From Sulfurovum indicum (GTDB taxonomy: Bacteria > Campylobacterota > Campylobacteria > Campylobacterales > Sulfurovaceae), in assembly GCF_014931715.1 (NCBI RefSeq), contig NZ_CP063164.1:124001-188000 (forward strand): a DNA stretch of 64,000 nt. Direction: 5' to 3'. A model generated the notes under the pieces. It was not told the origin of the DNA and did no database searches. It was given only the letters and a program-made list of their open reading frames with translations. Below, piece after piece: positions 172 through 25,592 of this stretch. Both the position numbers and the translations under genes were made by a program. Each line of letters starts with the position of its first letter. Position 1 is the stretch's first letter.

Positions 172-831
172 ATGAAAACGATCAAAGAGCTGCATAAACA
201 GGATAAACCCAGAGAGAAGCTTGTCCATAAAGGTGCCCAGGCATTGAAAAACGATGAACTGCTCTCCATACTGCTTGGTTCGGGGGTACAGGGCAAAGAT
301 GTCCGTAAACTCTCCAAAGAGATCATTGCGCTGTTTGAGAAGGGTTTTGATGAACTTACGGTCGAAAAACTCTGTGATGTCCATGGACTCGGCATGGCAA
401 AAGCATCACAGATAGTGGCTGCCATAGAGCTTGGCAGACGTTACTTGATCAAAAATAATAAACGGATCACGTCTGCGCAGGATGTTTATGAGGAGCTCAA
501 GGCATATGTTGACAGGGTACAAGAGTATTTTTTGACCATTACACTTGATGGAGCTTCACATATTATTCAGACACGTACCGTGTTTATCGGGACGCTCAAT
601 CAGTCACTGGTGCATCCGCGTGAAGTCTTTGCCGATGCTATTTGTGACAGAGCTGCCGGTATTGTCATTGCACACAATCATCCCTCCGGTACTCTGGAGC
701 CAAGCAGAGCCGATCTGCAGATCACAGACAGGCTTAAAGAGGTTGCCCGACTGGTCGGCATAGAACTGCTCGATCATGTCATACTCTCAAAGCATGGCTA
801 TTACAGTTTTTCTGATGAAGGATTATTGTAG
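172..831 (+). CDS. radC: RadC/JAMM-domain DNA repair-associated protein
   Basis: The 219-aa product has the RadC layout: an N-terminal helix-hairpin-helix (UPF0758) region with LLSILLGSG and GLGMAKASQI, then an MPN/JAMM metalloprotease-like domain with the motif HNHPSGTLEPSRAD (HxH plus Ser and Asp metal/catalytic residues). The family is linked by name to DNA repair, but its biochemical role is unsettled. An upstream ATG at 124 would add 16 residues that are not family-like (ILFLSGSLVYTAS). I chose 172 because MKTIKELHKQDKPREKL matches the usual start and because the -10 box lies between the two ATGs. The shared promoter element with recQ supports a DNA-metabolism role. Confidence 0.9.
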   Translation: MKTIKELHKQDKPREKLVHKGAQALKNDELLSILLGSGVQGKDVRKLSKEIIALFEKGFDELTVEKLCDVHGLGMAKASQIVAAIELGRRYLIKNNKRITSAQDVYEELKAYVDRVQEYFLTITLDGASHIIQTRTVFIGTLNQSLVHPREVFADAICDRAAGIVIAHNHPSGTLEPSRADLQITDRLKEVARLVGIELLDHVILSKHGYYSFSDEGLL

Positions 832-895
832 GATACGGTACTTGCCATGCATCTTCCCGCCTTCCTGGAGAAGGTGTATATAGCGGAATTTTGGA

Positions 896-1243
896 TTAAT
901 CGTCCTCTTTCAGGGCATAGGCACCGGGAGAGGGGGTAATACTGTAGATTTTGTAGATGGACAAAATGTTTTTTGTAAATGCGGTATCCATACCAAGCTC
1001 TTCTGCGGTTTTTTTAAGCACTTGAACAACCTTCGGGTCCATTGTCGTTACTTCAATAAGCAGGTCCCCTTTATATCCTCTATAGGTTCGGATATCTATA
1101 ATATCATACTCAAGTGCCTTTCGGATGAATGCCTTTCTCTCTTTGCTCATGCTGCAATCTGAGGAAGCAAGGTTTGCTACCGGTTTTCCGTGTACCCAGA
1201 TATTCTCTTCAAGTGCATTCTCACTGAAAGACTCATTGGCCAT
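896..1243 (-). CDS. conserved hypothetical protein, 115 aa
   Basis: The start was set at ATG 1243 because AAAAGGGG lies a few bases upstream; a longer frame from 1288 has no such site. The protein is soluble with no signal peptide or membrane segment. Its middle part (IIDIRTYRGYKGDLLIEVTTMDPKVVQVLKK) alternates predicted strands and a helix. I do not recognise a family. It is transcribed convergently to radC and lies downstream of, on the same strand as, the HAD phosphatase gene, about 260 bp away, so a shared transcript is possible but unproven. Confidence 0.65.
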   Translation of the reverse strand: MANESFSENALEENIWVHGKPVANLASSDCSMSKERKAFIRKALEYDIIDIRTYRGYKGDLLIEVTTMDPKVVQVLKKTAEELGMDTAFTKNILSIYKIYSITPSPGAYALKEDD

Positions 1244-4879: not shown

Positions 4880-4896
4880 TGGCAGAGAGGAAGGGA
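4880..4896. repeat. distal attachment site (copy of tRNA-Ser 3' end)
   Basis: TGGCAGAGAGGAAGGGA, an exact copy of the 3' terminus of tRNA-Ser (25505-25521). The flanking bases differ on both sides, so the repeat is exactly 17 bp. It lies 163 bp upstream of the integrase ATG. The rest of the gap 4745-5059 holds short reiterated motifs (ACCCGT twice near 4914-4947, CTATAG twice near 4945-4960) and the integrase promoter region; I see no gene there. Confidence 0.85.
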
Positions 4897-5059: not shown

Positions 5060-6151
5060 ATGAGCAGAATGAAGTCCAAAAAATATCAAGGTGTTTATCT
5101 TAATAAACTAGCAAATGGAGATATTAGTTATTCCATAGTTTACAAGGATGAACTTAATAAAACCAAACGGTTTACAGTAGGGAAAAAGTCTCAAGGTATC
5201 ACAGAAGTCTATGCCAATCATAAACGTAATGAGTTTATCAATAAAATACATTTAGGGGAAGATCCTCTCGCACATAAAAAGAGAAGAGAAAAAATCACCT
5301 TAGATGTCTTAGCTGAACATTATTTTACAGATAAAGAGTATGAAAATAAAAGTAATCGTAGATCCTATCAAAAGTATCAACTGCATATACAACCAGTATT
5401 TGGCAATAGACATATCTTTGATATAGAAAAGCAAGATGTGCTTAATTTTCGTAATAGCTTCATCAAGAAAAAAGCTCCAAAGACAATCAACGGTATTATC
5501 CAACTTTTAACAGCCATCATAAACTACAGTATTAAAACAAAGGGACTAAAAATAGTCAATCCTTGTGTAGGGGTACCACGTTTAAAAACAAATGATAAAA
5601 GAGAACGATTTTTAACGACCAAAGAAATAGAGACGTTAATGTATGAGTTAGAAGATGAAGATCTATTTTTGTTTGCAAAACTTGCATTATGTACAGGTGG
5701 TAGGCTAGAGACAATTTTACATATTCAAAAAAAAGACATAGATCTGGATAATAGATTTATTACCTTATGTGACTTGAAAAATGATGAAACCTATACAGGT
5801 TTTGTTCCTCATGATATGGTGGAGTATTTTAAAGAGTATCTGCCTAACCTGCGTAAAAATGATTATATTGTAGGTGGATATCATAAAAAATATCCTACAA
5901 GAACCATTAGCCGACATTTAAAAACCATTTTGGATGATTTGTTTAATCAAGGGTTAGATAAAAAAGATAGTAAGAACAGGGTAGTAATACATACCCTGAG
6001 ACATACTTTTGCAAGCCACCTGGCGATCAATGGCACACCTATCTTTACGATTCAAAAGCTTATGAATCATAAAGATATTGAACAAACTATGAGATATGCA
6101 AAGTTAGCTCCAGAGAGTGGTAGGGATAAGGTGGAGGGATTATATAAATAA
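5060..6151 (+). CDS. tyrosine recombinase/integrase
   Basis: A 363-aa phage-type integrase. The N-terminal part (1-60) resembles an arm-binding/DUF3596-like region, followed by a SAM-like core-binding domain (about 75-170) and a catalytic domain. Catalytic residues visible: Arg in CTGGRLETIL, His-x-x-Arg in HTLRHTFASHL, His in LMNHKD and the nucleophile Tyr in TMRYAKLAP. All expected catalytic motifs are present, so it should be active. The start has AATAGGAG upstream. It is the first gene inside the distal att copy, and presumably catalyses integration into tRNA-Ser and excision. Confidence 0.93.
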   Translation: MSRMKSKKYQGVYLNKLANGDISYSIVYKDELNKTKRFTVGKKSQGITEVYANHKRNEFINKIHLGEDPLAHKKRREKITLDVLAEHYFTDKEYENKSNRRSYQKYQLHIQPVFGNRHIFDIEKQDVLNFRNSFIKKKAPKTINGIIQLLTAIINYSIKTKGLKIVNPCVGVPRLKTNDKRERFLTTKEIETLMYELEDEDLFLFAKLALCTGGRLETILHIQKKDIDLDNRFITLCDLKNDETYTGFVPHDMVEYFKEYLPNLRKNDYIVGGYHKKYPTRTISRHLKTILDDLFNQGLDKKDSKNRVVIHTLRHTFASHLAINGTPIFTIQKLMNHKDIEQTMRYAKLAPESGRDKVEGLYK

Positions 6152-7979: not shown

Positions 7980-9155
7980 ATGACTGTAAAAAAGTACAAA
8001 CAGCTCACTATTTACGATATCTACTTTGATGAAGAGAGAAAACTACTTAAACCTGAAAAAGCAAATATCTCTAAAAAAGTTAGAGAGGGATATATCAATG
8101 CAGATTGGTTTAGGAAAACTTTATTTAATGCTACTTCTACTGGAGCTTGCATTAAATATAAAAAACCCAAAAGCATCTTCAATCAAAATGGGATTGAAAT
8201 ACTGGTGTCCCATTCCCTTAACCAGAAACATGCAGATGTTTTATCTATTTTATATACCGATAATTTACGTTTTAAAAAGATGAAACTCAAAGATGATGGA
8301 AGCTTCTATATTTATACAAGCTTATATCATATAGCTAAGAAGATGGGTTATAAAACCCCTAAAGGTGCAGTGCATAGAGTAAAAAGTTTACTGAATGATC
8401 TACGAGATACAGACTTTATCATCAAAAAAAAGATTCCAAACCATATAGACAAATATGATGAAATTAAAACAAAGATTCTAGGTGATTCTGAATACAGTAA
8501 TTTAGATGAAAGTTATAGGGTTGTGGTTGGTGGTAAAAGTGCAAGAGTCTTAGCAATGAGTGTGGCTGTACGAATTGATAAAGCACTCAATGAAAAGATA
8601 GTTGCTATCCCAGATAATAGATCTAAAATAAAGGCATTAATTCGATATATCTTATCTAATCAAAGTTCCAAATATGGTTATACACTTGAACGTATTTTTG
8701 AGCGATACAACATTGGACAAAAGCCTACTAAAAATGTATCACAAGAGCTTAAAAAGAAAAATGATGCGATGAATAGAAAAGATAAAAGTGTCTATAGAAA
8801 TCAACTAAGAGAACATCAAAAACTCTTAGAAGAACTCAATATTAGATTTGACGAAGAAGAGCAAAAAATCTACTATAAACAGCATAATCTTATTAGCTTT
8901 GATATGGGTATTGACCCTGTGCTTATTATGGCTCAAAATGAAGCCAATGGCACAGATAAATATATAGGCAAATGGATTAAATTACAAGATGAAACTTTAG
9001 CAAAAATTACAAATATTGAAGAGCTAAAAGATAACAAATTATCTGTAGATTTTTATATCCAACTAGAGGACAAAAAAGGAAAAATAAAAAGCATCTCAAG
9101 AGAAGAACTTGAAGATCTTTTTGATGAACATCTTAATGAATATTATGGTGTGTAA
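7980..9155 (+). CDS. plasmid-type replication initiator-like protein
   Basis: A 391-aa protein. Residues about 70-150 (LNQKHADVLSILYTDN, then SLYHIAKKMGYKTPKGAVHRVKSLLNDL) look like a first winged helix, and residues about 195-245 (IPDNRSKIKALIRYILSN, then YTLERIFERYNIG) like a second, which is the two-winged-helix plan of iteron-binding Rep proteins. The C-terminal 150 residues are charged and not recognised. Context supports replication: a small HTH gene upstream, oriT-like repeats and a relaxase-like gene downstream, and a 5 x 22-bp iteron array at 12230-12339. I am not certain of the family. Confidence 0.5.
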   Translation: MTVKKYKQLTIYDIYFDEERKLLKPEKANISKKVREGYINADWFRKTLFNATSTGACIKYKKPKSIFNQNGIEILVSHSLNQKHADVLSILYTDNLRFKKMKLKDDGSFYIYTSLYHIAKKMGYKTPKGAVHRVKSLLNDLRDTDFIIKKKIPNHIDKYDEIKTKILGDSEYSNLDESYRVVVGGKSARVLAMSVAVRIDKALNEKIVAIPDNRSKIKALIRYILSNQSSKYGYTLERIFERYNIGQKPTKNVSQELKKKNDAMNRKDKSVYRNQLREHQKLLEELNIRFDEEEQKIYYKQHNLISFDMGIDPVLIMAQNEANGTDKYIGKWIKLQDETLAKITNIEELKDNKLSVDFYIQLEDKKGKIKSISREELEDLFDEHLNEYYGV

Positions 9156-9340: not shown

Positions 9341-10495
9341 ATGGCAAAATCAAGTATGAACTCACAATCCGCACCAACTACAAGTGGTGGACACACAGAA
9401 GCAGAAATGATGAGAGAGTTTTTACCAGAGTACTTGCTCGAAAGAGATAAAAACTTTAGTGGGAATATGTATAAAGACTATGGTCTAAAACCACAAGAGT
9501 ATTTAGAAAAAGCCAAGGTTGCAGCTAAAGAGAAAACAGGTAGAAAAATGCAGACAAAGGCGATTGAAAATTTTCTACAGGATTCTGTGATAAATTTAGA
9601 AAAACATCACACCATAAAAGACATTGAAAATCTCTTTTCAAATCTCAATAAAAGGTTTGGTGGATTCAAGGTTTTTAAAATTGCTATTCATCATGATGAA
9701 GGAGTTTTTTTAGATACAAAACATAATGTGAAAGATCTTGAATATGATAGTGAAAATCTTAAGTGGTATAAAGATGAAGAAGATGTCACATTAGAAGTTA
9801 CGGACTATGCACCCAATAGAAATATTTTTTATAATGAAATAGATAATCATTGGTATTTTGATAAAGCTTTTTTACATAGAGCTGATATTAGCAAGCTTCA
9901 AAAACATATTAACTATCATGCCCATGTCCAGTACACGAAATTTAACATGGAGTTTGGTAAAAATCCACGACTTAGAAAAGCAGAAATGTCTGAGCTGCAG
10001 ACTATTGTGGCTGATTCATTAAAAATGGAGCGTGGAGAGGTTTGGAGCAAAAGAAGAAGGCAAACACATTGGCAGAGAAAAGAAGCTCATGATCAGCAAC
10101 GTGAAATCATTGCTAAACTTAAAGATGAGCTTAACACTAAACTCACTGCAATGCAAGAGAAGTTGGACAAAAAAGGTAAAGTCTCCAAAACAGATATTTC
10201 AGAGCTAAAAGAGATGCATAGGCAGGAGATGATTAAAAGTAAAGAGATTTATACGCCAGAGCAGTACCAATCTTTAAATGCTCTTTACAAGCAGGCAGTA
10301 GAAGATAATAAAGCTAAAGCGTTTGATCTAGTAAAATTTGAGTATGAAGTAGAACAATTAAAGCATGAAAATTCTATGTTAGAAGAAGACCTTGAAGAGA
10401 GTCTTGGTGAAGCGTATTTGGTAGAAGAGTCATGGAATCCAGATATAGAAGGTGTTAAAACGAGTGAAGTTCTATATAAAGACCTGTATGGGTAA
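9341..10495 (+). pseudogene. 5' part of MobV/Pre-like relaxase gene, split by IS insertion
   Basis: This frame gives 384 aa. Residues about 100-205 contain KIAIHHDEG and later INYHAHVQYTKFN; the His-x-His in NYHAHVQY with a preceding HxDE is the signature of MobV-type (plasmid recombination enzyme) relaxases. The C-terminal half is a long coiled coil. The frame ends 5 bp into the insertion element at 10491; after removing that element it continues at 11689 for a total of about 522 aa. The relaxase motifs are upstream of the break, so a truncated protein may keep nicking activity, but the full gene is interrupted. Confidence 0.75.
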
Positions 10496-12450: not shown

Positions 12451-12504
12451 ATGAAAAATATACGTAATAAAGTTATATTTGGAGTTGCAGAGGGAGACTT
12501 TTAA
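12451..12504 (+). CDS. possible 17-aa leader peptide coupled to lmuA-like gene
   Basis: ATG at 12451 follows AAAAGAAGG. The frame MKNIRNKVIFGVAEGDF ends in TAA that shares its last A with the ATG of the next gene (TAATG). Such overlap allows translational coupling. There is no homology evidence; it may be a chance frame. Confidence 0.25.
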   Translation: MKNIRNKVIFGVAEGDF

Positions 12505-13568
12505 TGAATAATGATAATCCCTTACTTGCTTCACAAAGAGAAAAAGCAGGTTCTGAAACTTTTGGAAAATATTTGTATCAATATCATTGGGCACTTTATC
12601 GAGTTTTAAAAGAACATGAGGAAGGAAAAGAATACGCAGTATTTGTAGAATTACATGAAGATGTTGTCTTAGCGACTTCTTTAGATAAAAATCTAGCTAA
12701 TTTTGAATTTTCTCAAATAAAAACTACAAAAGCAAATTTTACTCAAAATAGCCTTGTTAAAATTGGTAAACAAAATTCTGTTTTAGGCAAATTAATTGAT
12801 AGTAGTACAAAACAAAAATTCGCAGATTCAATTACAAAGATAAATCTTGTTTCAACGGGAGGATTTAATAAGGATTTTCATCCTAAAGGCTTAGATTTAG
12901 AAGATATCTGTATTAGTGATATTCCTGTTGATAATATGTCTGTGTTATGTAGTGAGATTATGAAAGAGCTTTCATTGCAATGTTTTCCTATTAATTTACA
13001 TTTTATTACTCCCGAGTTACCAGAAAAAGGTTTTCAAGATTCTATAATTGGGTATATATCAAAAGTTGTTTCTAAACTTTACCCAGATTCCATGACACAA
13101 GCAGAATATATCTATAGACCATTATATGACGAGTTAACAAGAAAAGGTATTGTTAAAAATGATTTTAAAGAATGGGAAGAGCTTTTAGATAAAAAAGCAT
13201 TAACTTCTATAACTGTTAATAAAGTTATTAGACAGTTTACGAAGAGAAAAGATGATGATAAAATTTTTAGAGAATTAGATGAAATTTTGAAAGAGTTAGG
13301 GTTAAATACTATACAGCGGAAAAGTTGGATAAAGTCTTTTGAAAGATATTATTTAAATCGTATTGGAAATAAAACATTGCATCAATTAGATATTCAAAAA
13401 GAAATTGAAGTTAATATAAATGATTGTAATGATGAAATTTCTCAACTGATTGATCTTTGTTTAATAAATTTATCTCAAAATGTCAAAGAAAAATTTAATG
13501 AGGAAAAAGATATAAAAACAGCAATTATATGTGAATTTATTTTGAAGGACATAGAATGCAAAGAGTAG
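12504..13568 (+). CDS. DUF4297/Cap4-type nuclease, Lamassu LmuA-like
   Basis: 354 aa. The N-terminus (FGKYLYQYHWALYRVLKEHEEGKEYAVFVELHEDVV) matches the DUF4297 (Cap4) dsDNA-endonuclease domain. Active-site residues of its PD-(D/E)xK fold are visible: Asp53 and the Gln-Ile-Lys at 71-73 (EFSQIKTT). The remaining 200 residues are helical and not recognised. No CD-NTase is nearby, so it is not CBASS Cap4. Instead the next gene is an SMC/Rad50-like ATPase, which is the LmuA-LmuB layout of Lamassu, where the ATPase senses foreign DNA and releases the nuclease. No lmuC is seen. It is preceded by GAGGGAG. Confidence 0.7.
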   Translation: MNNDNPLLASQREKAGSETFGKYLYQYHWALYRVLKEHEEGKEYAVFVELHEDVVLATSLDKNLANFEFSQIKTTKANFTQNSLVKIGKQNSVLGKLIDSSTKQKFADSITKINLVSTGGFNKDFHPKGLDLEDICISDIPVDNMSVLCSEIMKELSLQCFPINLHFITPELPEKGFQDSIIGYISKVVSKLYPDSMTQAEYIYRPLYDELTRKGIVKNDFKEWEELLDKKALTSITVNKVIRQFTKRKDDDKIFRELDEILKELGLNTIQRKSWIKSFERYYLNRIGNKTLHQLDIQKEIEVNINDCNDEISQLIDLCLINLSQNVKEKFNEEKDIKTAIICEFILKDIECKE

Positions 13569-13610
13569 AAAATTATAAACTGCTAATAAGAAACTTAAGG
13601 AATAAACATA

Positions 13611-15329
13611 ATGAAAAACTTATACTTCAAACAACTGCTACTACTGTCAAATTCCCAAAAATCTGCAAATCTATTCGAGTTCAAAAAAGGGTACAATCTA
13701 ATAACAGCGAATGATAATAGTGTAGGGAAATCAACTTTAGTTAAGTTGTTATTATGGGCAATGGGATGTGAACCAGAACTCGATGGTACATGGAAAAGTT
13801 TAGATTGTAAAGTATTACTTCATTTTTCAATTAATGAAATCAATTATTCTGTGCTTAGAGATGCAAATCTCATATATTTAAAAGAGGGAGATAAAGATTT
13901 TATAAAATTTACTAGTATTTCTGGAGATTATTCTAAAGTTTTTTCCCAACTAGTTGATTTTAAAGTTTTACTTCCTGATAGATCTGAAGATACCCAACTT
14001 ATTACGCCACCACCAGCATATTATTTTTTACCATTTTATATAGATCAAAAAAGGAGCTGGGCAAAAGCATGGGATAATTTTGAAAAGTTAACACAATTAG
14101 CTAACTGGAATCCAACTGTTATTAAATATCATGTTGGCTATTTACAAGCAAAACATTTTGAATATGAGGAAGAGTATCATATTGAACAAAAGAAAATAAA
14201 AGAATATATGCATGAAGTTGAAAAAATAGATTATGCTCTTGAGGTTGTTACTTCACATACGATAAATGCAGGGAATACAGAAGTTACTTTAGATTCAACA
14301 GTCTTTGAAGATATGACGCAGGAAATACAGAAAGAGTTACTTGATTTGTCAAATCAACAGGAGGATATTTTAAATAATTTATCAAATGTTATGTCAGATA
14401 AAGCCTATTTGGAACACCAAAAATCACTTGCTGAACATTTAATGAAAGAATTAGATAAAGATTATGTTTTTAGTGTAGAAAATATCGATAGTGATGAAGT
14501 AGAATGCCCTCTATGTGGAGTGATACATGAAAATTCTTTAGTTAACAGAGCTTCAATTCTTTCAGATAAGGAACAAGCAAATGAACAGTTAATTACTATT
14601 GATAGTAAATTAAAAACAGTAAATAATAAAATCATAAATTTAAGAAAAAAATCTACAGATATTAAATCTAAAATTAATGAAATAAATGCGAAATATACAG
14701 TAACGGATGAATCTAAACAACTTCAATTAAATGAAGTAATTGAAACTTTTGCATATCAATCTATTGATAGAAATATAAAAGAAACAAAGAAAGAAAAATT
14801 ATTAGATATTGAGGATTGTAAAGAAAACCAAAAATCAATTAAGAAAGATCAATCAAAATTATTACCAAAAGAAAGAAAAGATGATATCAATAATGCTTTT
14901 ATGGATTTATTAAAAACATATATTAAAATTTTAGATGTTGAAGAACTTAGTTTAGCAAAAGTTAACACACCTCTAAATTATAACCCTATAATAAAAGAAG
15001 GAGGTGCAGCAGAAGGGGCTCGTGGTATTTTAGCATATTACCTTGCCATCTATTCGCTTTCTGATATGTATGCAGATGAAGTAATATCTCCTCTTATTAT
15101 TGATACACCAAATCAACAAGAACAGTCTCATAAAAACTATGAAAATATTATGAAGCTTATAACTACGAAAATACCTTCTGACAAACAGGTAATTATGTGT
15201 GCTATGGAAAATAATATTTTAAAGGAATATGAAGAACAGGCAAATATAATTAATTTAGATAAGAGTAAGCTTTTGAAAAAATCAAAATATACGCAGATAA
15301 AAACTATTTTTGATGAAATTGAGGGATAG
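13611..15329 (+). CDS. SMC/Rad50-like ATPase, Lamassu LmuB-like
   Basis: 572 aa with an ABC-ATPase head split by a coiled coil. Walker A is NDNSVGKST (34-42). A Q-loop region lies near YIDQKRSW (about 145). Coiled coils at about 185-290 and 310-420 flank a zinc-hook-like CPLCG near residue 299. A degenerate signature GGAAEGARG is near 464 and Walker B is SPLIIDTPNQQ near 492. At 572 aa it is short for a Rad50 but usual for defence SMC proteins. It follows the DUF4297 gene by 42 bp in the same orientation, so the pair forms a two-gene operon. Very AT-rich. Confidence 0.72.
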   Translation: MKNLYFKQLLLLSNSQKSANLFEFKKGYNLITANDNSVGKSTLVKLLLWAMGCEPELDGTWKSLDCKVLLHFSINEINYSVLRDANLIYLKEGDKDFIKFTSISGDYSKVFSQLVDFKVLLPDRSEDTQLITPPPAYYFLPFYIDQKRSWAKAWDNFEKLTQLANWNPTVIKYHVGYLQAKHFEYEEEYHIEQKKIKEYMHEVEKIDYALEVVTSHTINAGNTEVTLDSTVFEDMTQEIQKELLDLSNQQEDILNNLSNVMSDKAYLEHQKSLAEHLMKELDKDYVFSVENIDSDEVECPLCGVIHENSLVNRASILSDKEQANEQLITIDSKLKTVNNKIINLRKKSTDIKSKINEINAKYTVTDESKQLQLNEVIETFAYQSIDRNIKETKKEKLLDIEDCKENQKSIKKDQSKLLPKERKDDINNAFMDLLKTYIKILDVEELSLAKVNTPLNYNPIIKEGGAAEGARGILAYYLAIYSLSDMYADEVISPLIIDTPNQQEQSHKNYENIMKLITTKIPSDKQVIMCAMENNILKEYEEQANIINLDKSKLLKKSKYTQIKTIFDEIEG

Positions 15330-16146: not shown

Positions 16147-18504
16147 GTGGATAAGAAAGAAAAACTAGAACTCAGTGAATCAGATATCCGAGCACTTTTT
16201 ATCACACCAGCTATTAAGAATGCTGGATGGGATGAATTTATACAAATTCGTCGTGAAGTTACGCTTACTCCCGGTCCTGTAGTTGTACGGGGACAAATGT
16301 CTCATCGCAATAAAAAGAAAAAAAAGTTTGCAGACTATGTTCTCTCTTGGAAAAAAGGTGTACCTGTAGCCGTGGTGGAAGCCAAGGAGAATAACTATAC
16401 TGTAAGTCATGGTATGCAACAGGCTTTAGGGTATGCAGATATTTTGGAAGTTCCCAGTGCTTTCAGTTCCAATGGGGATGCCTTCGCCTCACACAATAAA
16501 GTGCCAGAACCTCATGAAGATATTGAAACAGAATTCCCCCTAGAAGCTTTTCCTTCTCCAGAGGTACTCTGGAAAAGATATAAAAAATACAGAAATATTG
16601 AAGATGATACAGAAGATCTAGTCACAGAACCATATTATGAAGATGGATCAGCTAAAGAGCCTCGATACTACCAGGTAGAAGCCATTAACAGAGTGGTTGA
16701 AGCAGTAGCTAATGATCAAAAAAGGCTACTGCTTGTTATGGCAACAGGTACGGGGAAAACCTATACGACGTTTCAAATCATTTGGAGACTTTGGAAAGCC
16801 AAAAAAGTTAAAAGAGTTCTTTTCCTTGTCGATAGAAATATTCTCGCAGATCAAACGATAGTCAATGATTTTAAGCCTTTTGGTTCAGCGATGAATAAAG
16901 TGAAAAATAGGAAGATCGACCCCTCGTATGAGATCCATTTAGCACTTTATCAGGCGATTACCGGACCCGATGAAGAAGATAAGATCTTTAAAAATGTATC
17001 GCCCGATTTTTTTGATATGGTTGTGATAGACGAGTGCCACCGTGGAAGTGCAGATGAAGATTCATCATGGCGGGAAATATTGGACTACTTTTCCAATGCT
17101 ATTCAACTGGGACTTACCGCTACACCAAAAGAGACAAAATATGTCTCCAACATCACCTATTTTGGAGACCCGGTTTATACCTATAGTCTGAAACAAGGGA
17201 TCGAAGATGGATTTCTTGCTCCCTACAAAGTCATACGTATAGACATAGATAAAGATATTTATGGATGGACTCCTCCAGAAGGTATGACTGATGACCTTGG
17301 GCAAGAGTTGGAGAAGAGGGTATACAATCAAAAAGATATGGATCGCATATTGGTGCTGAACCAGCGTACAAAACTGGTAGCCAAGAGAATCATGGAGTAC
17401 CTCAGAGCAACCGACCCTTTTGCCAAGACTATTATTTTCTGTGAAGACATCGATCATGCGGAACGTATGAGAAGAGCCATTGTAAATGAAGCTAGAGAGT
17501 TGGCAATAGAGAATCCTCGTTATGTAGTACGCATTACAGGAGATAGCGTTGAGGGTAAAGCAGAGCTTGATAACTTCATAGACCCGGAGAGTAAATTCCC
17601 GGTGATCGCCACAACATCAGATCTGCTAAGTACAGGTGTAGATGCCAAGACATGTAAACTCATAGTGTTAGATAAAACGATCAATTCCATGACCACTTTC
17701 AAGCAGATCATTGGTCGGGGGACACGGATCGAAGAGGAGTTTGACAAATACTTTTTTACCATCATGGATTTCAAGAAAGCTACAGAACTCTTTAAAGATG
17801 AAGAGTTTGATGGTAAGCCAGTAGTTATCTATGAACCTGATGACGATGATGATCCTGTGCCTCCAGATCCGGAAGGTGAAGATGATGATGAAGGTGAGGA
17901 AGAAGAGGGTGAAGAAACCGGAGACGGTATCAGAAAATTCTTTGTCGATGGTGTGCCTGCCAAAATCATAGCAGAGCGTATAGAGTACATAGGAGATGAC
18001 GGGAAGCTCATCACAGAGTCCTATCGTGATTTTAGTAGAAAGAAGATCAAGTCCGAGTTTGAATCTTTAGATGTATTTTTGCAGCGTTGGAGCAAGACCA
18101 AAAAGAAGCAGGCTATTTTAGAACTTTTGGAAGAACACGGGGTGATACTGGAAAACCTGAAAGATGAAGTAGGCAAGGATTATGGAGAGTTTGACCTCAT
18201 TTGTCATATCGCTTACGATAAACCGCTACTCACAAGAAAAGAGCGTGTCAACAATGTTAAAAAACGTAACTATTTTACGAAGTATGAAGAGAAAATGAGA
18301 GCTGTACTGGATGCATTGCTTGACAAATATAAGGATGAAGGTATTAAAACATTGGAAAATACTAAAGTATTGAAGTCAAAAGAGTTTGCCAAAATAGGAA
18401 CTCCCATAGAGATCATTACCCAGATATTTGGGAGTAAAGAGAAATATGAAGATATGGTAGCAGAGTTGGAAGAAGAACTGTTTAGAGATGAGGAATCAGC
18501 ATGA
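16147..18504 (+). CDS. hsdR: type I restriction enzyme R subunit (EcoEI-like)
   Basis: 785 aa starting at GTG after AAAGG. The N-terminal nuclease domain has PD-(D/E)xK residues (KFADYVLSW, then VAVVEAKENN at about 75-82). The SF2 translocase follows: ATGTGKT (Walker A, about 200), VIDECHRGS (DEAD-like), LGLTATPKET, and QIIGRGTRIEE near 520. An acidic low-complexity linker (DDDDDPVPPDPEGEDDDEGE, about 562-590) precedes the EcoEI-type C-terminal domain. It cuts unmodified DNA after ATP-driven translocation with HsdM/HsdS. It overlaps hsdM by ATGA. Composition is less AT-rich than the neighbouring island genes. Confidence 0.95.
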   Translation: MDKKEKLELSESDIRALFITPAIKNAGWDEFIQIRREVTLTPGPVVVRGQMSHRNKKKKKFADYVLSWKKGVPVAVVEAKENNYTVSHGMQQALGYADILEVPSAFSSNGDAFASHNKVPEPHEDIETEFPLEAFPSPEVLWKRYKKYRNIEDDTEDLVTEPYYEDGSAKEPRYYQVEAINRVVEAVANDQKRLLLVMATGTGKTYTTFQIIWRLWKAKKVKRVLFLVDRNILADQTIVNDFKPFGSAMNKVKNRKIDPSYEIHLALYQAITGPDEEDKIFKNVSPDFFDMVVIDECHRGSADEDSSWREILDYFSNAIQLGLTATPKETKYVSNITYFGDPVYTYSLKQGIEDGFLAPYKVIRIDIDKDIYGWTPPEGMTDDLGQELEKRVYNQKDMDRILVLNQRTKLVAKRIMEYLRATDPFAKTIIFCEDIDHAERMRRAIVNEARELAIENPRYVVRITGDSVEGKAELDNFIDPESKFPVIATTSDLLSTGVDAKTCKLIVLDKTINSMTTFKQIIGRGTRIEEEFDKYFFTIMDFKKATELFKDEEFDGKPVVIYEPDDDDDPVPPDPEGEDDDEGEEEEGEETGDGIRKFFVDGVPAKIIAERIEYIGDDGKLITESYRDFSRKKIKSEFESLDVFLQRWSKTKKKQAILELLEEHGVILENLKDEVGKDYGEFDLICHIAYDKPLLTRKERVNNVKKRNYFTKYEEKMRAVLDALLDKYKDEGIKTLENTKVLKSKEFAKIGTPIEIITQIFGSKEKYEDMVAELEEELFRDEESA

Positions 18505-19982
18505 GTAATGTATCGGGTGTCATAAAATCCATTCAGGATATTATGCGTAAAGATGTGGGGGTCGATGGCGATGCCCAGCGTATCAGTCAACTGGTCTGGA
18601 TGTTTTTCCTCAAGATCTATGATGACCGAGAGGCAGAACTGGAAATATTGGAAGATGATTTTAAGTCACCTTTACCCGAAGAGTTAAGATGGAGAAACTG
18701 GGCAAAAGACCCGGAGGGTATTACTGGTGAAGAGCTTTTCAATTTTGTCAATAATCAGCTTTTTCCTGCACTCAAGAAACTGACAGTTTCAGGAGATGAT
18801 AAAAAACTTGCCCAAAGAGCCAAAGTTGTACGAACCATTTTTGAAGATGCCTACAACTATATGAAGTCAGGTACGCTCATGCGACAGGTGATCAACAAGA
18901 TTTCCGAGATAGACTTTAACAACACGAAAGACCGCCACACCTTTGGGAATATTTACGAACAACTCCTAAAAGACCTCCAAAGTGCAGGGAATGCCGGAGA
19001 GTTCTATACCCCTCGTGCGGTAACCAGTTTCATTGTTGACAGGGTTGATCCGAAGTTACATGAAAGTGTACTTGACCCTGCGTGTGGAACGGGTGGCTTT
19101 TTGACTACAGCTGTAGAGCATAAGCGTGAGCGTTATGTAAGTTCAGTTGAAGATGAAGAGACGCTTCAAACTTCCATTCATGGGGTAGAGAAAAAAGCGA
19201 TGCCGCATATGCTCTGCGTGACAAACATGATACTGCATGGCATAGACACACCGGAAAACATCTTACACGGTAATACACTTGAGCGCCCCTACAAAGACTA
19301 CACAGAAAAAGACAGAAGAAATGTCATTATGACGAACCCACCTTTTGGCGGTACAGAAGAAGACGGGATAGAAAATAACTTTCCCTCAGACCTGCGTACT
19401 CGTGAAACAGCCGATCTTTTCATGGCACTCATCATCAGGCTTCTGAAAAATGAAGGGCGTGCGGCGGTGGTGCTTCCTGATGGGTTTCTCTTTGGTGAGG
19501 GGATGAAGACACGACTCAAAGAGAAGCTGATGACTGAATGTAACCTGCATACGATTGTCAGACTCCCAAAAGGGGTGTTCAACCCCTATACGAGCATCAA
19601 AACAAACATTCTCTTTTTTACCAAAGGCAAGCCTACCAAACAGGTTTGGTACTATGAGCATCCATACCCGGAAGGGGTCAAAAGCTATAACAAAACAAAG
19701 CCGATGCGTTTTGAAGAGTTCAAGCCTGAGCAAGAGTGGTGGGGTGATGAAACAGATGGTTTTGCCTCACGGGTACAGAACAGACAGGCGTGGAAAGTCT
19801 CTATGGAGGAGATCATAGAACGAGGGTACAACCTGGACATTAAAAATCCGCATCTTGAAGAGCAGATCGACCATGATCCAGATGAACTCTTGAAGCTCTA
19901 TGCCTCACAGAAAGAGTCCATCGCATCCATCCAAAACCAGATAAAAGATGTGCTTCAAAAAGCGTTTGACGGAGAGGCATAA
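18501..19982 (+). CDS. hsdM: type I restriction-modification methyltransferase M subunit
   Basis: 493 aa. An N-terminal HsdM_N helical domain (1-130) precedes an N6-adenine methyltransferase domain with the AdoMet motif DPACGTGGFL (about 192) and the catalytic NPPF in MTNPPFGG (about 278). It methylates the recognition sequence chosen by HsdS and forms the M2S and R2M2S complexes. Its start overlaps the hsdR stop (ATGA) and it is followed with no gap by hsdS, so translation of the three is coupled. Confidence 0.96.
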   Translation: MSNVSGVIKSIQDIMRKDVGVDGDAQRISQLVWMFFLKIYDDREAELEILEDDFKSPLPEELRWRNWAKDPEGITGEELFNFVNNQLFPALKKLTVSGDDKKLAQRAKVVRTIFEDAYNYMKSGTLMRQVINKISEIDFNNTKDRHTFGNIYEQLLKDLQSAGNAGEFYTPRAVTSFIVDRVDPKLHESVLDPACGTGGFLTTAVEHKRERYVSSVEDEETLQTSIHGVEKKAMPHMLCVTNMILHGIDTPENILHGNTLERPYKDYTEKDRRNVIMTNPPFGGTEEDGIENNFPSDLRTRETADLFMALIIRLLKNEGRAAVVLPDGFLFGEGMKTRLKEKLMTECNLHTIVRLPKGVFNPYTSIKTNILFFTKGKPTKQVWYYEHPYPEGVKSYNKTKPMRFEEFKPEQEWWGDETDGFASRVQNRQAWKVSMEEIIERGYNLDIKNPHLEEQIDHDPDELLKLYASQKESIASIQNQIKDVLQKAFDGEA

Positions 19983-21749
19983 ATGACTGATGTCATCATA
20001 GAACATTTAGATATCTGGACTTCAGCCGTTGTAACGAAAAAGTCCGCAGGGCGTGGCAGCAGCAAAAAGCAAGAAACCTATGGCATTAAAAAACTGCGTG
20101 AACTCATACTTGAGTTGGCTGTACGTGGGAAGCTTGTACCACAAGATCCAAATGATGAGCCAGCGAGTGTGTTACTTGAGAAGATTGCTGAAGAGAAAGA
20201 ACGGTTGATTGAAGAGGAAAAGATTAAGAGGCATAAGCCTTTACCTAAAATAGATGATAATTTTAATCCATTTAAATTACCCGAAGGATGGAGTTTTGTA
20301 CGTTTAGGCGATATTACAAATCGTATTGGTTCAGGAAGTACACCAAGAGGAGGTAAAAGTGCCTATGTAGAAAAAGGAATTCCTTTTCTAAGATCACAAA
20401 ATATCTGGAATCATGGTTTAAATCTTTATGATGTTGCTTATATCTCTGAAGAAACTCATGCAAAAATGTCAAATACTACAGTCTATGAGAATGATATTCT
20501 TTTAAATATTACGGGGGGTTCATTAGGACGCTCTACAATATTTCCCAGTGGTATTGGCGAGGCAAATGTAAGTCAACACGTCACAATTATAAGGCTCACA
20601 GATATAACAATGAAAAACTATGTGCACCTTTGTATTTTGTCACCATATATTCAAAAAATGATTTGGGATCGTCAAGTTGGTGTTGCACGTGAAGGATTAA
20701 GTAAAAAGGTGCTCGAGTTATTTGAGATACCTTTGCCACCTATAAAAGAGCAATATCGAATAGTCAAAAAAGTAGATGAGCTCATGGCTCTTTGTGATAA
20801 ATTGGAAGAGGAGCAAGAAGAGAATAGCATCACACATCAAATACTGGTAGAGACGCTGCTTGGTACCCTTACCAATGTTGAGATAGCAGAGGAGTTCACC
20901 GGTGTATGGCAACGCATAGCAGAGCATTTTGATGTGCTTTTTACGACAGAGCAAAGCATAGACAAACTCCAGGAGACCATCTTGCAACTGGCAGTCATGG
21001 GCAAGCTTGTACCGCAAGACCCCACTGATGAGCCGGCGAGTGTGTTGCTTAAGAAGATTGCGGAAGAGAAAGAAAAGTTGGTTAAAGAGGGGAAGATTAA
21101 GAAGCAGAAGCCTGTCTCTGAGATTGAAGAGAAAGAAATACCTTTTAGTTTACCTAAGAGTTGGACATGGGCTAGACTTTCAGAACTATGTATTTTAGAA
21201 AATGGAGATCGTAGTAAAAATTATCCAAACAAATCTTTATTAGTAGATAAGGGTATTCCATTTATTAATGCAGGACACCTTCAAAATAATATGATAAATA
21301 TTGATGATAAAAGCTATATAACTAGAGATAGGTATGATTTACTAAGAAGTGGAAAAGTAAAGGAGGGTGATATATTGTTTTGTCTTAGAGGATCACTTGG
21401 AAAAACCGCATTAATCAAAGATATTGAATTTGGAGCAATCGCATCTTCTTTAGTTATAGTTCGACTTTTCTCTATAATGTACAACAAATATACTCTTGCA
21501 TATTTCAATAGCCCATTATCAAAAGAAATAATGAAAAACTATGACAATGGTACAGCCCAACCTAATCTCTCTGCTAGTGATTTAGGTAAGTTTTTAGTTC
21601 CCATCCCTCCCTTGTCTGAACAATATCATATAGTTAAAAAATTAGATGAACTCATGGTTCTGTGCGATAGATTAAGATCAGCCATCCGTGAACTACAAAC
21701 AACTCAAGTCAATTTGGCAGATGCCGTGGCACAGCAGTTGGTAGAATAG
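19983..21749 (+). CDS. hsdS: type I restriction-modification specificity S subunit
   Basis: 588 aa with two target-recognition domains (about residues 95-260 and 380-555), each followed by conserved helical spacers (EQYRIVKKVDELMALCDKLEEE and EQYHIVKKLDELMVLCDRL). Both halves are preceded by near-identical segments (ELAVRGKLVPQDPNDEP and QLAVMGKLVPQDPTDEP). The TRD coding segments are markedly more AT-rich than the conserved regions, consistent with exchange of TRDs. Together they read a bipartite sequence that cannot be deduced here. The start follows the hsdM stop directly. Confidence 0.95.
   Translation: MTDVIIEHLDIWTSAVVTKKSAGRGSSKKQETYGIKKLRELILELAVRGKLVPQDPNDEPASVLLEKIAEEKERLIEEEKIKRHKPLPKIDDNFNPFKLPEGWSFVRLGDITNRIGSGSTPRGGKSAYVEKGIPFLRSQNIWNHGLNLYDVAYISEETHAKMSNTTVYENDILLNITGGSLGRSTIFPSGIGEANVSQHVTIIRLTDITMKNYVHLCILSPYIQKMIWDRQVGVAREGLSKKVLELFEIPLPPIKEQYRIVKKVDELMALCDKLEEEQEENSITHQILVETLLGTLTNVEIAEEFTGVWQRIAEHFDVLFTTEQSIDKLQETILQLAVMGKLVPQDPTDEPASVLLKKIAEEKEKLVKEGKIKKQKPVSEIEEKEIPFSLPKSWTWARLSELCILENGDRSKNYPNKSLLVDKGIPFINAGHLQNNMINIDDKSYITRDRYDLLRSGKVKEGDILFCLRGSLGKTALIKDIEFGAIASSLVIVRLFSIMYNKYTLAYFNSPLSKEIMKNYDNGTAQPNLSASDLGKFLVPIPPLSEQYHIVKKLDELMVLCDRLRSAIRELQTTQVNLADAVAQQLVE
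20114..20209 (+). repeat. imperfect internal repeat in hsdS (partner at 20985-21080)
   Basis: About 96 bp upstream of TRD1 recur upstream of TRD2, including the shared blocks AAGCTTGTACC and GCGAGTGTGTT. A second pair begins at 20748 and 21618 (helical spacers after each TRD). Such repeats allow TRD shuffling by homologous recombination. Confidence 0.7.
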
Positions 21750-21758
21750 GTAGCAGAA

Positions 21759-23591
21759 ATGACAAAAAAAGCAGAAAGCTGGTGTGATAGAGATGAACAT
21801 CACCTTTTTGAACTCTATGAGGACTTTAATGAATGGCTGGAAGGTGATGAAGGACTAGCAGTAAGAGAAGCTAACTATATAGATGGACTCTCTCAACCCA
21901 GCAAAGCATTTTACGCTAGTGATAAAGAAGCCTATGAGCAAGCGTTAGAACGTTACAGGCAAGAGCGTTACCATGAAGTGTTGAGTAAAGAGTATATTGC
22001 TGAACACTTTTCAGATGAACATTGGTATGAAAAAAATGTTTCACGTTTTGACCAACTTGTAGATCGCATAGCTTCCGGAGATGTGGTTCCTTTCATTGGT
22101 GCAGGACTATCTGTAGCTGGTGGTTTTTCTACATGGGAAGGTCATTTGCGCCAGCAGGGAAGGACAGCAGGCATAGATGCTGAGCACATCGAAGGGTTAC
22201 TTTCATCGGGTCAGTATGAGACCGTCATTGAAGAGATAGAAGAGAGTAGAGGTAGAGAGGTCTTTGCTCAAGAGATCAGAGATGTGTTTGGCAAAACAGG
22301 GGAGCTTACGCAGGTAACACTGCTCATTTCAGAACTTTTTACCGACACACTCTTGACGACAAACTACGATAAGCTTATTGAACAGGCTTATGACACCGGT
22401 GCAAATAACTTGCAGATCATCAGTGGAAGAAATGCAACGGAGGAACCCAAAGCAGATCATGTAACCGTTGTTAAACTTCATGGAGATGTAGATGATCAAA
22501 CTACCTGTATATTGAGTAAAAACCAATATGATGAAGCTTATGGCAATGAACATATCAATATGCACTTACCCATCCCTAAACTGCTAGAGTATTACTATAA
22601 AAACAGTAGCTTACTCTTTTTGGGTTCCAGTTTGAACAGTGATAGAACCGTACAAGTTTTTCGCACAATTAAAGAGAGTTTAGGTGATGTAGAGATACCC
22701 CCACACTTTTCCATAGAAGCTGCTCCTGAGACTGAAAAAGAGTTGGTAGAGAGAAATGCTTATTTGGTGAACTTGGGTATTGCACCTATCTGGTTTGAAA
22801 AAGGTCGATATGAGTATATAGAAAACATATTGAGGCTAGCTAGAAATGAAGTGCGATATAGAGGCATAGGAGAGTCTGAAGTAGAAGAAATAGTAGAGAC
22901 TAAGAAGCCATGTAAATTAGACATAGAGCTTTCTGAATTTCTACATGACCTGATAGACTTAATGCCATTGATGCATTGGTTACACAGGCACGTACCCCAG
23001 AAAGAAACAGCAAAATATTTGCAAAGTATGCAACGTGTATTTTATGCAGATTCATTTTTTATAGACAATGTAGATGAAAACTTACGCATAGGTGTCGAAA
23101 ACTTAACAAGAGCATTGTCTAATAAACCTAAATTTGATGGCTATACACATGAAAAACTATTGGTTGCTTTTAAAAGCTTTCAGAAGTACTTTCAATCTAT
23201 AGGTATACAGCCATATCCTACAGATGGCACAGAGTGGAACATACATGAACTGTTTACTATCCCTTATACTCAATTTGATAGCAGTGAACTTACAGCATCA
23301 AACCCAAACCATCATCTCTCCAGATTAGCCATGATACTTTTAGAACATGGACGAAATCAAAAACACAGTCCTAAAAATTATTGCGAATTACCTTCATCCC
23401 TAAACGTAGAGATAAGTGATTACTTGACAGTTATCCTCAAAGAAAAACTTGGAATTGAGATCCCCGACCGTATACAGAATGGACATATTGATGAGATAAG
23501 GGAATTGTGTAAGAGTGCTTGGGATCATCAGGAGGAGTTACATTATGTAGGTTTTCTACAAAGGGTTATGAGGTGTTTTAGTAAAACTTAA
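21759..23591 (+). CDS. SIR2-like domain protein in the type I R-M operon
   Basis: 610 aa. After a 100-residue N-terminal region a SIR2_2-type Rossmann domain follows: VPFIGAGLSVAGGFSTW (114-126, NAD-binding Gly-Ala-Gly), LLTTNYDKLIEQA (about 200), KLHGDVDD (about 240, candidate catalytic His) and LLFLGSSL (about 285). The C-terminal 250 residues are helical and unrecognised. SIR2-like proteins of this kind deplete NAD+ in several phage-defence systems (DSR, Thoeris, prokaryotic Argonaute partners). It begins 10 bp after the hsdS stop, so it is probably co-transcribed. Its trigger here is unknown. Confidence 0.82.
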   Translation: MTKKAESWCDRDEHHLFELYEDFNEWLEGDEGLAVREANYIDGLSQPSKAFYASDKEAYEQALERYRQERYHEVLSKEYIAEHFSDEHWYEKNVSRFDQLVDRIASGDVVPFIGAGLSVAGGFSTWEGHLRQQGRTAGIDAEHIEGLLSSGQYETVIEEIEESRGREVFAQEIRDVFGKTGELTQVTLLISELFTDTLLTTNYDKLIEQAYDTGANNLQIISGRNATEEPKADHVTVVKLHGDVDDQTTCILSKNQYDEAYGNEHINMHLPIPKLLEYYYKNSSLLFLGSSLNSDRTVQVFRTIKESLGDVEIPPHFSIEAAPETEKELVERNAYLVNLGIAPIWFEKGRYEYIENILRLARNEVRYRGIGESEVEEIVETKKPCKLDIELSEFLHDLIDLMPLMHWLHRHVPQKETAKYLQSMQRVFYADSFFIDNVDENLRIGVENLTRALSNKPKFDGYTHEKLLVAFKSFQKYFQSIGIQPYPTDGTEWNIHELFTIPYTQFDSSELTASNPNHHLSRLAMILLEHGRNQKHSPKNYCELPSSLNVEISDYLTVILKEKLGIEIPDRIQNGHIDEIRELCKSAWDHQEELHYVGFLQRVMRCFSKT

Positions 23592-23667: not shown

Positions 23668-24708
23668 ATGAATAAAAAAATTGATAAGATTATTAAAGTA
23701 GCCAGTGATTATCATAAGCCATTAACTAGAGAAAGTGTAACTCAGTGGATAAATCAATTTGATGAAGTAGATAGGATATTTATATTAAAAGAAACACTTC
23801 ATATACTTAAACAAACATACATTTCAGAGGATCAAGCTAAAAATAATTTGCGGGTTATGCTAAGTAAACTATGTACTAAATATGGTTTTTCTACAGTAGA
23901 GGACTTTCTTGAGAATGTTACTTTTTTAAAGTGTCAAAAAGCATATAAAAGCCAAAGTGTATTATTGGATATGTTAAAAACCATAGCTCAATCAGATTAT
24001 GATATAGATATTAGTATTAATGATTTGGATAATAATAAATATTGGTTTTATCTAGATGATAATTTATCGACGGGTAGTACATTTTTTAATAATATAGTAA
24101 AAACTATTGATACTTTTAGTTATGATAAATTTAAAGAACAAAATATAAGAATAATTTCATGTTTTTTTTATTTACATGTCTGGGGATTTAAGAATACAAA
24201 ATTTAGATTGACTAAAAGATATACTACTGAGATAGACAATAAAATAACTTATCATCGATTTAATATAATAAATAACAATCCAAGAATACATAGTCATTAT
24301 AATAATCCTGCGTTTAATTGTGCTTACTGCAAGGATACAAAGGATGTTAGAGTAATAGAATATTTAGATAATTTACCGACTATGACAGACTATGATAGTA
24401 TGAGTAATAAAGATTTTGCCTTCAGACCAAATGATAGACCAAAGGTAGAGACTCTATTTTCATCTAAGGTATCAAGAGATCGGTATGAAAAAATAATTTT
24501 AGATAAGGGTTTAGATATTTTAGAAAAAGTAGGAGATCATGGAAAGTCAACACGTCCATTGGGATTTGTCAATCCTACATATCAAACTTTAGGAATGGGA
24601 AGTTTTGTTTTTACTTGGCGTAATATTTCAAATACTTGTCCAATTGTATTTTGGTGGGAACCAAATGGTTGGAAACCTTTGTTTTATGTAGCCAATAGAG
24701 GGTTATAG
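23668..24708 (+). CDS. phosphoribosyltransferase-like conflict protein (PRTase-CE type)
   Basis: 346 aa. Residues 125-140 (YWFYLDDNLSTGSTFF) form a complete PRPP-binding loop: two Asp (130-131) and TGST (135-138). Residues 1-110 are helical. A Cys pair lies in NCAYCKD. The C-terminus FTWRNISNTCPIVFWW, then WKPLF, resembles the ending of PRTase-like proteins described as conflict-system components (family name from memory). The TAG stop overlaps the GTG start of the NADAR gene by one base, so the two are translationally coupled. It lies 77 bp after the SIR2-like gene and is much more AT-rich, so it is probably a separate module. Biochemical function unknown. Confidence 0.65.
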   Translation: MNKKIDKIIKVASDYHKPLTRESVTQWINQFDEVDRIFILKETLHILKQTYISEDQAKNNLRVMLSKLCTKYGFSTVEDFLENVTFLKCQKAYKSQSVLLDMLKTIAQSDYDIDISINDLDNNKYWFYLDDNLSTGSTFFNNIVKTIDTFSYDKFKEQNIRIISCFFYLHVWGFKNTKFRLTKRYTTEIDNKITYHRFNIINNNPRIHSHYNNPAFNCAYCKDTKDVRVIEYLDNLPTMTDYDSMSNKDFAFRPNDRPKVETLFSSKVSRDRYEKIILDKGLDILEKVGDHGKSTRPLGFVNPTYQTLGMGSFVFTWRNISNTCPIVFWWEPNGWKPLFYVANRGL

Positions 24709-25349
24709 TGTATACAAATAATAAAAATATAAGATCCTATACTAAAGATGAATGTATCTCTTTTAGAAAGACAAAAGAAGCATATGGGGAACTGTCTAAT
24801 ATGGTTTCAGGATATCCTTTAGTTGTAAACAATACTTTTTTCTTATCCTCTGAAGCGTTATACCAATGTTGCCGATTTCCTCACCTACCTGATGTACAAA
24901 AAAAGATAATAGAACAAACTAGTCCAATGACGGCAAAGATGGTGTCTAAACCATTTAGACATCAATCACGACTTGATTGGGATATGCATAGAATAAAAAT
25001 TATGAAATGGTGTATAAGAGTAAAATTAGCACAAAACTGGGATAGATTTTCAAAAGTTTTATTATCTACAAATAGTTTAGCTATAGTTGAAGATTCTCAT
25101 AAAGATGAATTTTGGGGTGCAAAATTTAATGGAGAAACTTTTGTTGGAGTAAATGCATTAGGTCGCTTACTGATGGAGTTACGTGAAGAGATAAAAAATA
25201 AACCAAAAGAAGAATTTAGGCAAGTCCCCCCTCCGATGATAAATGATTTTTTATTATTTAGAAAACAAATCGGAATAGTTACTGAAACAGATAAAAAGAT
25301 TTTTTTAGAAAATAGTAATATATATCAGCAAAAAAATTTGTTTGGGTAA
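24708..25349 (+). CDS. NADAR-family (YbiA/DUF1768-like) protein
   Basis: 213 aa from GTG 24708. NADAR landmarks in order: KEAYGELSNM, SSEALYQCCRF, a central P-x-x-AK helix (SPMTAKMV), RLDWDMHRIKIMKWCIRVK, IVEDSHKDEFWG and GVNALGRLLMELRE. Known NADAR proteins cleave N-glycosidic bonds (YbiA in riboflavin intermediate damage control), and some remove ADP-ribose from guanine as antitoxins of DarT-like toxins. One-base overlap with the PRTase-like gene indicates a joint function, perhaps reversal of a ribosyl modification (inference). It is the last gene before the right att site. Confidence 0.85.
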   Translation: MYTNNKNIRSYTKDECISFRKTKEAYGELSNMVSGYPLVVNNTFFLSSEALYQCCRFPHLPDVQKKIIEQTSPMTAKMVSKPFRHQSRLDWDMHRIKIMKWCIRVKLAQNWDRFSKVLLSTNSLAIVEDSHKDEFWGAKFNGETFVGVNALGRLLMELREEIKNKPKEEFRQVPPPMINDFLLFRKQIGIVTETDKKIFLENSNIYQQKNLFG

Positions 25350-25504: not shown

Positions 25505-25521
25505 TGGCAGAGAGGAAGGGA
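25505..25521. repeat. proximal attachment site within tRNA-Ser
   Basis: TGGCAGAGAGGAAGGGA, the 3' end of the tRNA gene on the minus strand and identical to 4880-4896. It marks the right boundary of the integrative element and leaves the tRNA intact. Confidence 0.85.
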
Positions 25522-25592
25522 TTCGAACCCTCGAGGCTGTTACACCTACACGAGTTCCAGTCGTGCGCCTTCGACCACTCGGCCACCTCTCT
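25505..25592 (-). tRNA. tRNA-Ser (anticodon GGA)
   Basis: 88 nt with encoded CCA. The acceptor AGAGAGG pairs with CCTCTCT. The anticodon stem CACGA/TCGTG encloses CTGGAAC, giving anticodon GGA. The T-loop GGTTCGAATCC and a class II variable arm are present. Decodes UCC/UCU. It is the integration target of the island to its left. Confidence 0.95.

Follow-up and report, generated by a model that had tools for sequence, protein, structure and literature searches.

A predicted DS-32 anti-phage gene pair in Sulfurovum indicum: PRTase-CE and NADAR proteins as a possible writer and eraser of base ribosylation

Described relatives of the gene pair

NADAR-domain enzymes have been shown to hydrolyse guanine-ADP-ribose and to serve as antitoxins to DarT1, and one relative, YbiA, cleaves the N-glycosidic bonds of riboflavin precursors (PMC11543638). 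The YbiA operon of E. coli K-12 also contains YbiB, which has predicted phosphoribosyltransferase activity but belongs to a different family from PRTase-CE (PMC11125620). Phosphoribosyltransferases (PRTases) have been proposed as the probable effectors of retrons, and DprA paired with a PRTase confers protection from T7 and lambda (PMC9122126). Two equivalog models of NCBIfam release 20, NF053875 (DS32_1_antiphage, cut-off 250 bits) and NF053876 (DS32_2_antiphage, cut-off 240 bits), cover the two components of a single validated anti-phage system, and RefSeq uses their names for an E. coli gene pair residing in a lambdoid prophage (locus L006). The prefix "DS" denotes the 42 systems that were validated in E. 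coli in the DefensePredictor study (PMC13092281); the text of that source mentions NADAR domains and the legend of its Fig. 4 a PRTase, there are zero mentions of DS-32 by name in its main text, and it is from the names that we infer the DS32 models to be its DS-32.

The window analysed here, a 64,000-nucleotide stretch of the Sulfurovum indicum genome, carries two adjacent genes on the same strand with the PRTase gene first, which is the DS-32 gene order (Table 1). The 346-aa product of the first gene matches Pfam PRTase-CE (PF24390, 4.5e-38) and scores 289.9 bits (2.4e-86) against NF053875, and the 213-aa product of the second matches Pfam NADAR (PF08719, 8.4e-26) and scores 286.9 bits (3.5e-86) against NF053876, so that both exceed the equivalog cut-offs. 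The NADAR protein also passes TIGR02464 (77.4 bits, against a cut-off of 73.7). Judged by these matches, the pair is almost certainly a member of the DS-32 anti-phage system, and it is a divergent, Campylobacterota one. It has the two families, order and strand of the E. coli pair, whereas its PRTase shares about 27% identity with the E. coli protein, its loop reads TGST rather than SGAK, and it lies on a chromosomal defence island by type I restriction-modification (RM) and SIR2 genes rather than in a prophage. An earlier note on this DNA had correctly recognized both open reading frames, the single base that they share (the TAG stop ends in the G with which the GTG start begins, as ATAGTG), and the high AT content of both (28–31% GC, compared to 42–45% in the core genome). 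Its description of the system as undescribed must be given up, since both proteins exceed the DS32_1 and DS32_2 cut-offs and the names are in use by RefSeq for E. coli. The pair is already catalogued, and the mechanism proposed below rests on relatives.

Resemblance to other described systems is partial. DarTG1 (DarT1-NADAR) likewise pairs a toxin gene with a NADAR hydrolase, and E49 of the window protein occupies the position of E88 in the C7 NADAR. However, the toxin of DarTG1 is an ADP-ribosyltransferase, whereas the partner here is a PRTase-CE protein and not a DarT1, and the DarTG1 NADAR is of the BC4488 type (Asp) with Lys95, whereas that of the window is of the YbiA type (Glu128) with Arg instead. 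Type III retrons and DprA-PRTase pairs also join a PRTase effector to a partner, and in one related locus (L046) PRTase-CE adjoins a retron-type reverse transcriptase (RT); the partner in those systems is RT/msDNA or DprA, whereas here it is a NADAR. Membership of the pair among retrons was considered and rejected: the PADLOC match to PRTase_III-A is weak and confined to the N-terminal 53 residues, no RT lies beside the pair, and no retron RNA family exceeded its gathering score in window positions 1–30000. The NADAR of E. coli YbiA belongs to the same subfamily (Glu), has Arg at the D86 position and has the same fold (2b3w), but carries K55 where paired NADARs have R56.

The defence island

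The island spans 20.6 kb between two copies of a 17-bp tRNA-Ser repeat. The pair is the last one on it, and is preceded in the cargo by a Fic protein, Lamassu LmuA/LmuB, the type I RM system and the SIR2 protein. In two congeners, the same tRNA is separated from a homologue of window positions 200–1215 by 1.1 and 2.3 kb, compared to 24 kb here, and these congeners are without the island. The pair had previously been placed at the end of a tRNA-borne island full of defence genes, and this is borne out by the att repeats, the integrase, the congener comparison and the presence of Lamassu, type I RM and SIR2 genes inside.

Several neighbours deserve mention in their own right. The Lamassu genes, encoding LmuA (a Cap4 nuclease) and LmuB, lie at window positions 12504–15329. 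Two further island proteins (7980–9155, 391 aa; 9341–10495, 384 aa) gave no Pfam or PADLOC match and are perhaps involved in replication or mobilisation. Just outside the left att repeat, positions 2771–4744 encode a Schlafen-group-3 helicase protein matching the PADLOC candidate PDC-S41 (5e-290); it may be a second insertion, next to the island but distinct from it. The SIR2 protein, encoded between hsdS and the PRTase gene, has a ThsA-like N-terminal half and is possibly RM-associated; it was rejected as a third subunit of the system, as no homologue occurs beside the pair in 37 related loci. Likewise, neighbour clustering gave no further conserved gene; apart from the pair, the biggest cluster was a helix-turn-helix regulator in 4 loci.

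Table 1. Features of the gene pair, its island and related loci (unprefixed coordinates refer to the window)
Feature	Position	Strand	Evidence
DS-32A, PRTase-CE phosphoribosyltransferase-like protein, 346 aa, ATG start, proposed toxic writer	23668..24708	+	Pfam, NCBIfam, model
PRPP-loop-like motif LDDNLSTGST, residues 129-138	24052..24081	+	
C-terminal motif RNxxNxxPxxxW, residues 318-329	24619..24654	+	
DS-32B, YbiA-type NADAR, 213 aa, GTG start, proposed eraser/antitoxin	24708..25349	+	Pfam, NCBIfam, model
NADAR E49, catalytic glutamate (E43 in P. nicotianae NADAR)	24852..24854	+	71/71 paired NADARs
NADAR R56, at position of catalytic phosphate-coordinating Lys	24873..24875	+	helix-spacing alignment
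NADAR E128, glutamate defining YbiA subfamily	25089..25091	+	71/71 paired NADARs
Left att repeat TGGCAGAGAGGAAGGGA, 17 bp	4880..4896	.	copy of tRNA-Ser(GGA) 3' end
Tyrosine integrase of island, just inside left repeat	5060..6151	+	Pfam Phage_integrase 1.3e-22
Type I RM genes hsdR, hsdM, hsdS	16147..21749	+	
SIR2-domain defence protein, just upstream of PRTase	21759..23591	+	Pfam SIR2_2 1.9e-24
Right att repeat (tRNA-Ser(GGA) 3' end)	25505..25521	.	
tRNA-Ser(GGA), integration site	25505..25592	-	ARAGORN; Rfam
NADAR-HsdS fusion ORFs	L084:4001-6184, L092:4001-6136, L095:3200-5176, L013:4998-7061		
Phage-contig NADARs	L117:4001-4615; L118:4001-4591		

Coupling, active sites and fusion partners

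With the NADAR alone as query, we retrieved 34 genome loci and 40 viral or prophage loci, the former spanning Chloroflexota, Pseudomonadota, Bacteroidota, Acidobacteriota and Myxococcota, together with MAGs labelled Nanosynbacter and Methanothrix. A DS-32-family PRTase lies directly upstream of the NADAR in 67 of the 72 testable loci (32/33 in genomes and 35/39 in viral or prophage loci), and the same gene order is seen in E. coli, Klebsiella and Vibrio. Five loci are without an upstream PRTase (L039, L117, L118, L120 and L121), and the four of these that were scanned fall below the DS32_2 cut-off. Moreover, the PRTase and NADAR distance matrices of 35 pairs correlate at r = 0.87, a value equalled by none of 5000 permutations, all of which stayed at or below 0.29. 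The earlier note had proposed a coupled PRTase-like and NADAR defence pair and suggested looking for the two families as neighbours in unrelated genomes, and adjacency of this frequency across many phyla upholds it. Its argument from the one-base overlap to a fixed stoichiometry fails, however, because the overlap is not a conserved feature of the pair: gene spacing varies across relatives, with candidate NADAR starts mostly at about -16 to +14 nt and at about +34 in Flavobacterium.

Within Campylobacterota the DS32_1 family is rare, as 1 of 397 genomes exceeds the cut-off, namely the window's own, and the S. indicum genome holds no second DS32_1 protein and no second NADAR. The PRTase sequence alone as query gave no match in viral contigs and none by tblastn in phages; the viral and phage loci were found instead with a NADAR alignment. 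Extra PRTase copies, from tandem or nearby duplication, are situated near a complete PRTase-NADAR pair at L029:2885-4983 and L033:1933-2964.

The model of the PRTase (pLDDT 88.4) has a core that most resembles those of uracil PRTases and PyrR (Z about 10, rmsd 2.5–3.5 A; for 1o5o, Z 10.5 and rmsd 2.6 over 127 residues), and the protein shows the hallmarks of a type I PRTase, in that an acidic pair is followed by [ST]GxT within a PRTase fold. Residues invariant in the DS-32 PRTase family include Y128, D130, D131, G136, R253, R270, E274, R318, N319, N322 and W329. The loop that had been described as an intact PRPP loop is indeed present at residues 129–138, but its TGxT ending is unusual and does not generalise: T138, its last Thr, is R or K in most relatives, and only two Flavobacterium members retain the ending, in the form SGGT. 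For the most part, PRTase-CE proteins with other partners have the DD...G and NxPNN...W motifs as well, and the NxPNN...P...W part of the C-terminal motif is common to the retron-, ORC- and NB-ARC-type proteins.

The PRTase belongs to PRTase-CE, an effector-like domain that occurs as well in retrons, NLR-like proteins and ORC-type operons; this assignment is new here. In another Campylobacterota genome (L045, 1372-3717), for example, PRTase-CE forms the N-terminal domain of an NB-ARC/TPR (NLR-like) protein. The N-terminal domain is the usual effector position in NLR-like/STAND proteins, and by analogy this placement can be read as an effector position for PRTase-CE. Three-gene operons encoding an N6 or N4/N6 DNA methylase, PRTase-CE and an ORC-CDC6-like ATPase are also found in Campylobacterota (L041, L042), and these seem to be a distinct defence system that employs this PRTase domain; a similar operon at L044 was judged by ORF order only.

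Gene loss in E. coli, where 63 of 5426 genomes match DS-32, bears on the roles of the two proteins. Among the matches listed, every NADAR is adjoined by a PRTase or by an unnamed ORF in its place, and no intact PRTase occurs without a NADAR; the single NADAR-less genome has an IS1-truncated PRTase, and two other genomes have an IS-interrupted PRTase beside an intact NADAR. Together with the phage NADARs described below, these patterns fit a PRTase toxin and a NADAR antitoxin that phages could borrow, albeit in few cases (2–3 E. coli events). Locus L119, with an intact PRTase and a frameshifted NADAR, counts against strict antitoxin dependence unless the frameshift is a sequencing error. On balance, the PRTase is probably a toxic effector.

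Residue definitions for NADARs, including the catalytic role of E43 in the P. nicotianae enzyme, are taken from PMC11543638. E43 and E125 of that enzyme correspond to E49 and E128 of the window NADAR, both of which are conserved in 71 of 71 members of the DS-32-type set, and the residues that contact phosphate, W89 and W133, are retained. The model (pLDDT 93.5) matches YbiA 2b3w (TM 0.61 by query) and the ADP-ribose-bound P. nicotianae NADAR 8bau, so that the protein combines the NADAR fold, the last-strand Glu (E128) and the upstream catalytic Glu (E49) of a YbiA-type NADAR. The catalytic-Lys position, whose correspondence with R56 rests on an E+7 helix spacing (YbiA K55; C7 E88/K95) rather than on superposition, MAFFT having gapped the P. 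nicotianae K50 column, is R in 71 of 71 paired NADARs but K in YbiA and in the unpaired L118, L039 and L120; the unpaired phage NADAR of L117, with R, is the exception among unpaired copies. In the E. coli C7 NADAR, K95R remains active in vitro but no longer rescues from DarT1 (PMC11543638). The position of the adenine-stacking Tyr84 is variable in the family. Arg88 was rejected as a DS-32 signature, as it differs from P. nicotianae but is common to YbiA and unpaired NADARs. Our reading of these residues is that DS-32 NADARs may constitute a subfamily with an altered phosphate site that is not tuned to ADP-ribose.

NADAR is fused in frame to a complete HsdS in L013, L084, L092/L093 and L095/L083, on at least three tree branches, and the operon layout in these cases is hsdM, (other genes), PRTase, NADAR-HsdS, hsdR. 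Other fusions join it to a DUF1156/N6_N4 methylase-like protein of 1341 aa that adjoins a PRTase and a helicase-like gene (L089:4001-8023), to ComEA-like HhH domains (L007, L008) and to DUF4365 (L029). In the window, the pair itself lies downstream of hsdRMS and the SIR2 gene. DNA is the likeliest target because the NADAR has repeatedly become joined to DNA-binding modules, whole HsdS subunits among them; these fusions would be understandable if the NADAR acted on DNA or were directed to it. We regard the case for a DNA substrate over RNA or a small molecule as evenly poised. The HsdS fusions would be compatible with guidance of an eraser as well as of an effector.

DS-32-clade NADARs are also encoded on two large phage contigs, of 485 kb (L117) and 177 kb (L118), both with terminase-type hits and both without PRTase-CE. 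On the 177-kb contig, phrog_2, a model with no name attached, falls on the Terminase_6N ORF; a tail sheath was not found in the two contigs. These NADARs are possible anti-defence genes. They may also have another role, as they score 231 and 190 bits, respectively, both below the DS32_2 cut-off, and the L118 gene is preceded by a DUF262-like gene that it overlaps by 4 bases.

A possible writer and eraser, and other readings

In the reading that we favour, PRTase-CE would act as a toxic effector on infection. With PRPP or a related ribosyl-pyrophosphate donor it would modify a base of nucleic acid, most likely of DNA, by a (phospho)ribosyl group, and this modification would stop replication or kill the infected cell. 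The NADAR would then be an antitoxin, hydrolysing the N-glycosidic bond and keeping the group off host DNA until infection shifts the balance. As an overall explanation, a PRTase writer and a NADAR eraser is tentative and falls a little short of an even prospect, as does the component claim that the NADAR reverses the product of the PRTase; that the group is phosphoribosyl rather than ADP-ribosyl is more doubtful. Use of PRPP is not certain, because most relatives have R or K where the loop ends in Thr here. The writer and eraser idea was already put forward in the earlier note, and it gains from the effector-like use of PRTase-CE, the conserved NADAR glutamates, the DNA-targeting fusions and the PRTase-less phage NADARs, while remaining a proposal.

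The pair could instead operate on a small molecule, with the PRTase producing a toxic or signalling ribosylated metabolite on infection (or consuming PRPP for it) and the NADAR degrading it, such that no nucleic acid is modified. The closeness of the modelled PRTase core to nucleobase PRTases (uracil PRTase, PyrR) would suit such chemistry, as would the action of YbiA-type NADARs on riboflavin precursors, the TIGR02464 match of the window NADAR and the proposal that phage NADARs target soluble ADP-ribose derivatives (PMC9503650). Repeated fusion to HsdS, a DNA methylase, HhH domains and DUF4365 is nevertheless hard to explain for a soluble substrate, and we consider this explanation unlikely. 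Somewhat less likely again is a single effector and sensor complex, in which the NADAR would be a sensor or DNA-guiding subunit for a PRTase effector with no writer and eraser relation between them. Tight pairing and agreement of the trees would be expected of such a complex, the HsdS and HhH fusions would guide it to DNA, and DS-5 of DefensePredictor is described in the text of PMC13092281 as needing both genes without being a toxin-antitoxin system; yet the NADAR catalytic glutamates, present in 71 of 71, are unexpected in a non-catalytic subunit, and NADARs occur on phage contigs without a PRTase.

The earlier note had also raised the alternative that the pair rewires NAD/ADP-ribose signalling. 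Such a pair would be mechanistically equivalent to DarT1-NADAR, with the PRTase using NAD- or ADP-ribose-derived donors. NADARs studied alongside ADP-ribosyltransferase toxins do reverse guanine ADP-ribosylation (PMC11543638), and the phage enzyme Namat shows ADPR-PP specificity (PMC12774641). Against this, Pfam finds no ART domain in either protein, R56 stands in place of the key lysine whose change to Arg abolishes DarT1 rescue in the E. coli C7 NADAR, Arg occupies the D86 position, as it does in YbiA, and the adenine-stacking position (Tyr84) of the ADP-ribose-binding NADAR is not conserved. The alternative is weakened accordingly, and appears very improbable.

New to the present work are the PRTase-CE assignment, the Arg in 71 of 71 paired NADARs, the fusions to DNA-directed parts and the PRTase-less phage NADARs. 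A NADAR that travels with one PRTase class, keeps its catalytic glutamates and is fused to DNA-recognition parts predicts a ribosylated base and its specific reversal. In its fullest form, the writer and eraser proposal would describe the first reversible (phospho)ribosylation system on DNA, with PRTase-CE writing phosphoribosyl groups from PRPP, the NADAR erasing them, the HsdS-fused branch providing sequence-specific self-marking and large phages countering with a captured NADAR; taken as a whole, this chain is quite unlikely. If true, the NADAR-HsdS branch would amount to a restriction-modification-like scheme based on ribosylation instead of methylation. More generally, if the writer and eraser reading is correct, it would offer a first handle on how PRTase-CE effectors act, among the PRTases of retrons, DprA-PRTase pairs and DS-32, and (phospho)ribosylation of nucleic acid would join the known immune modifications.
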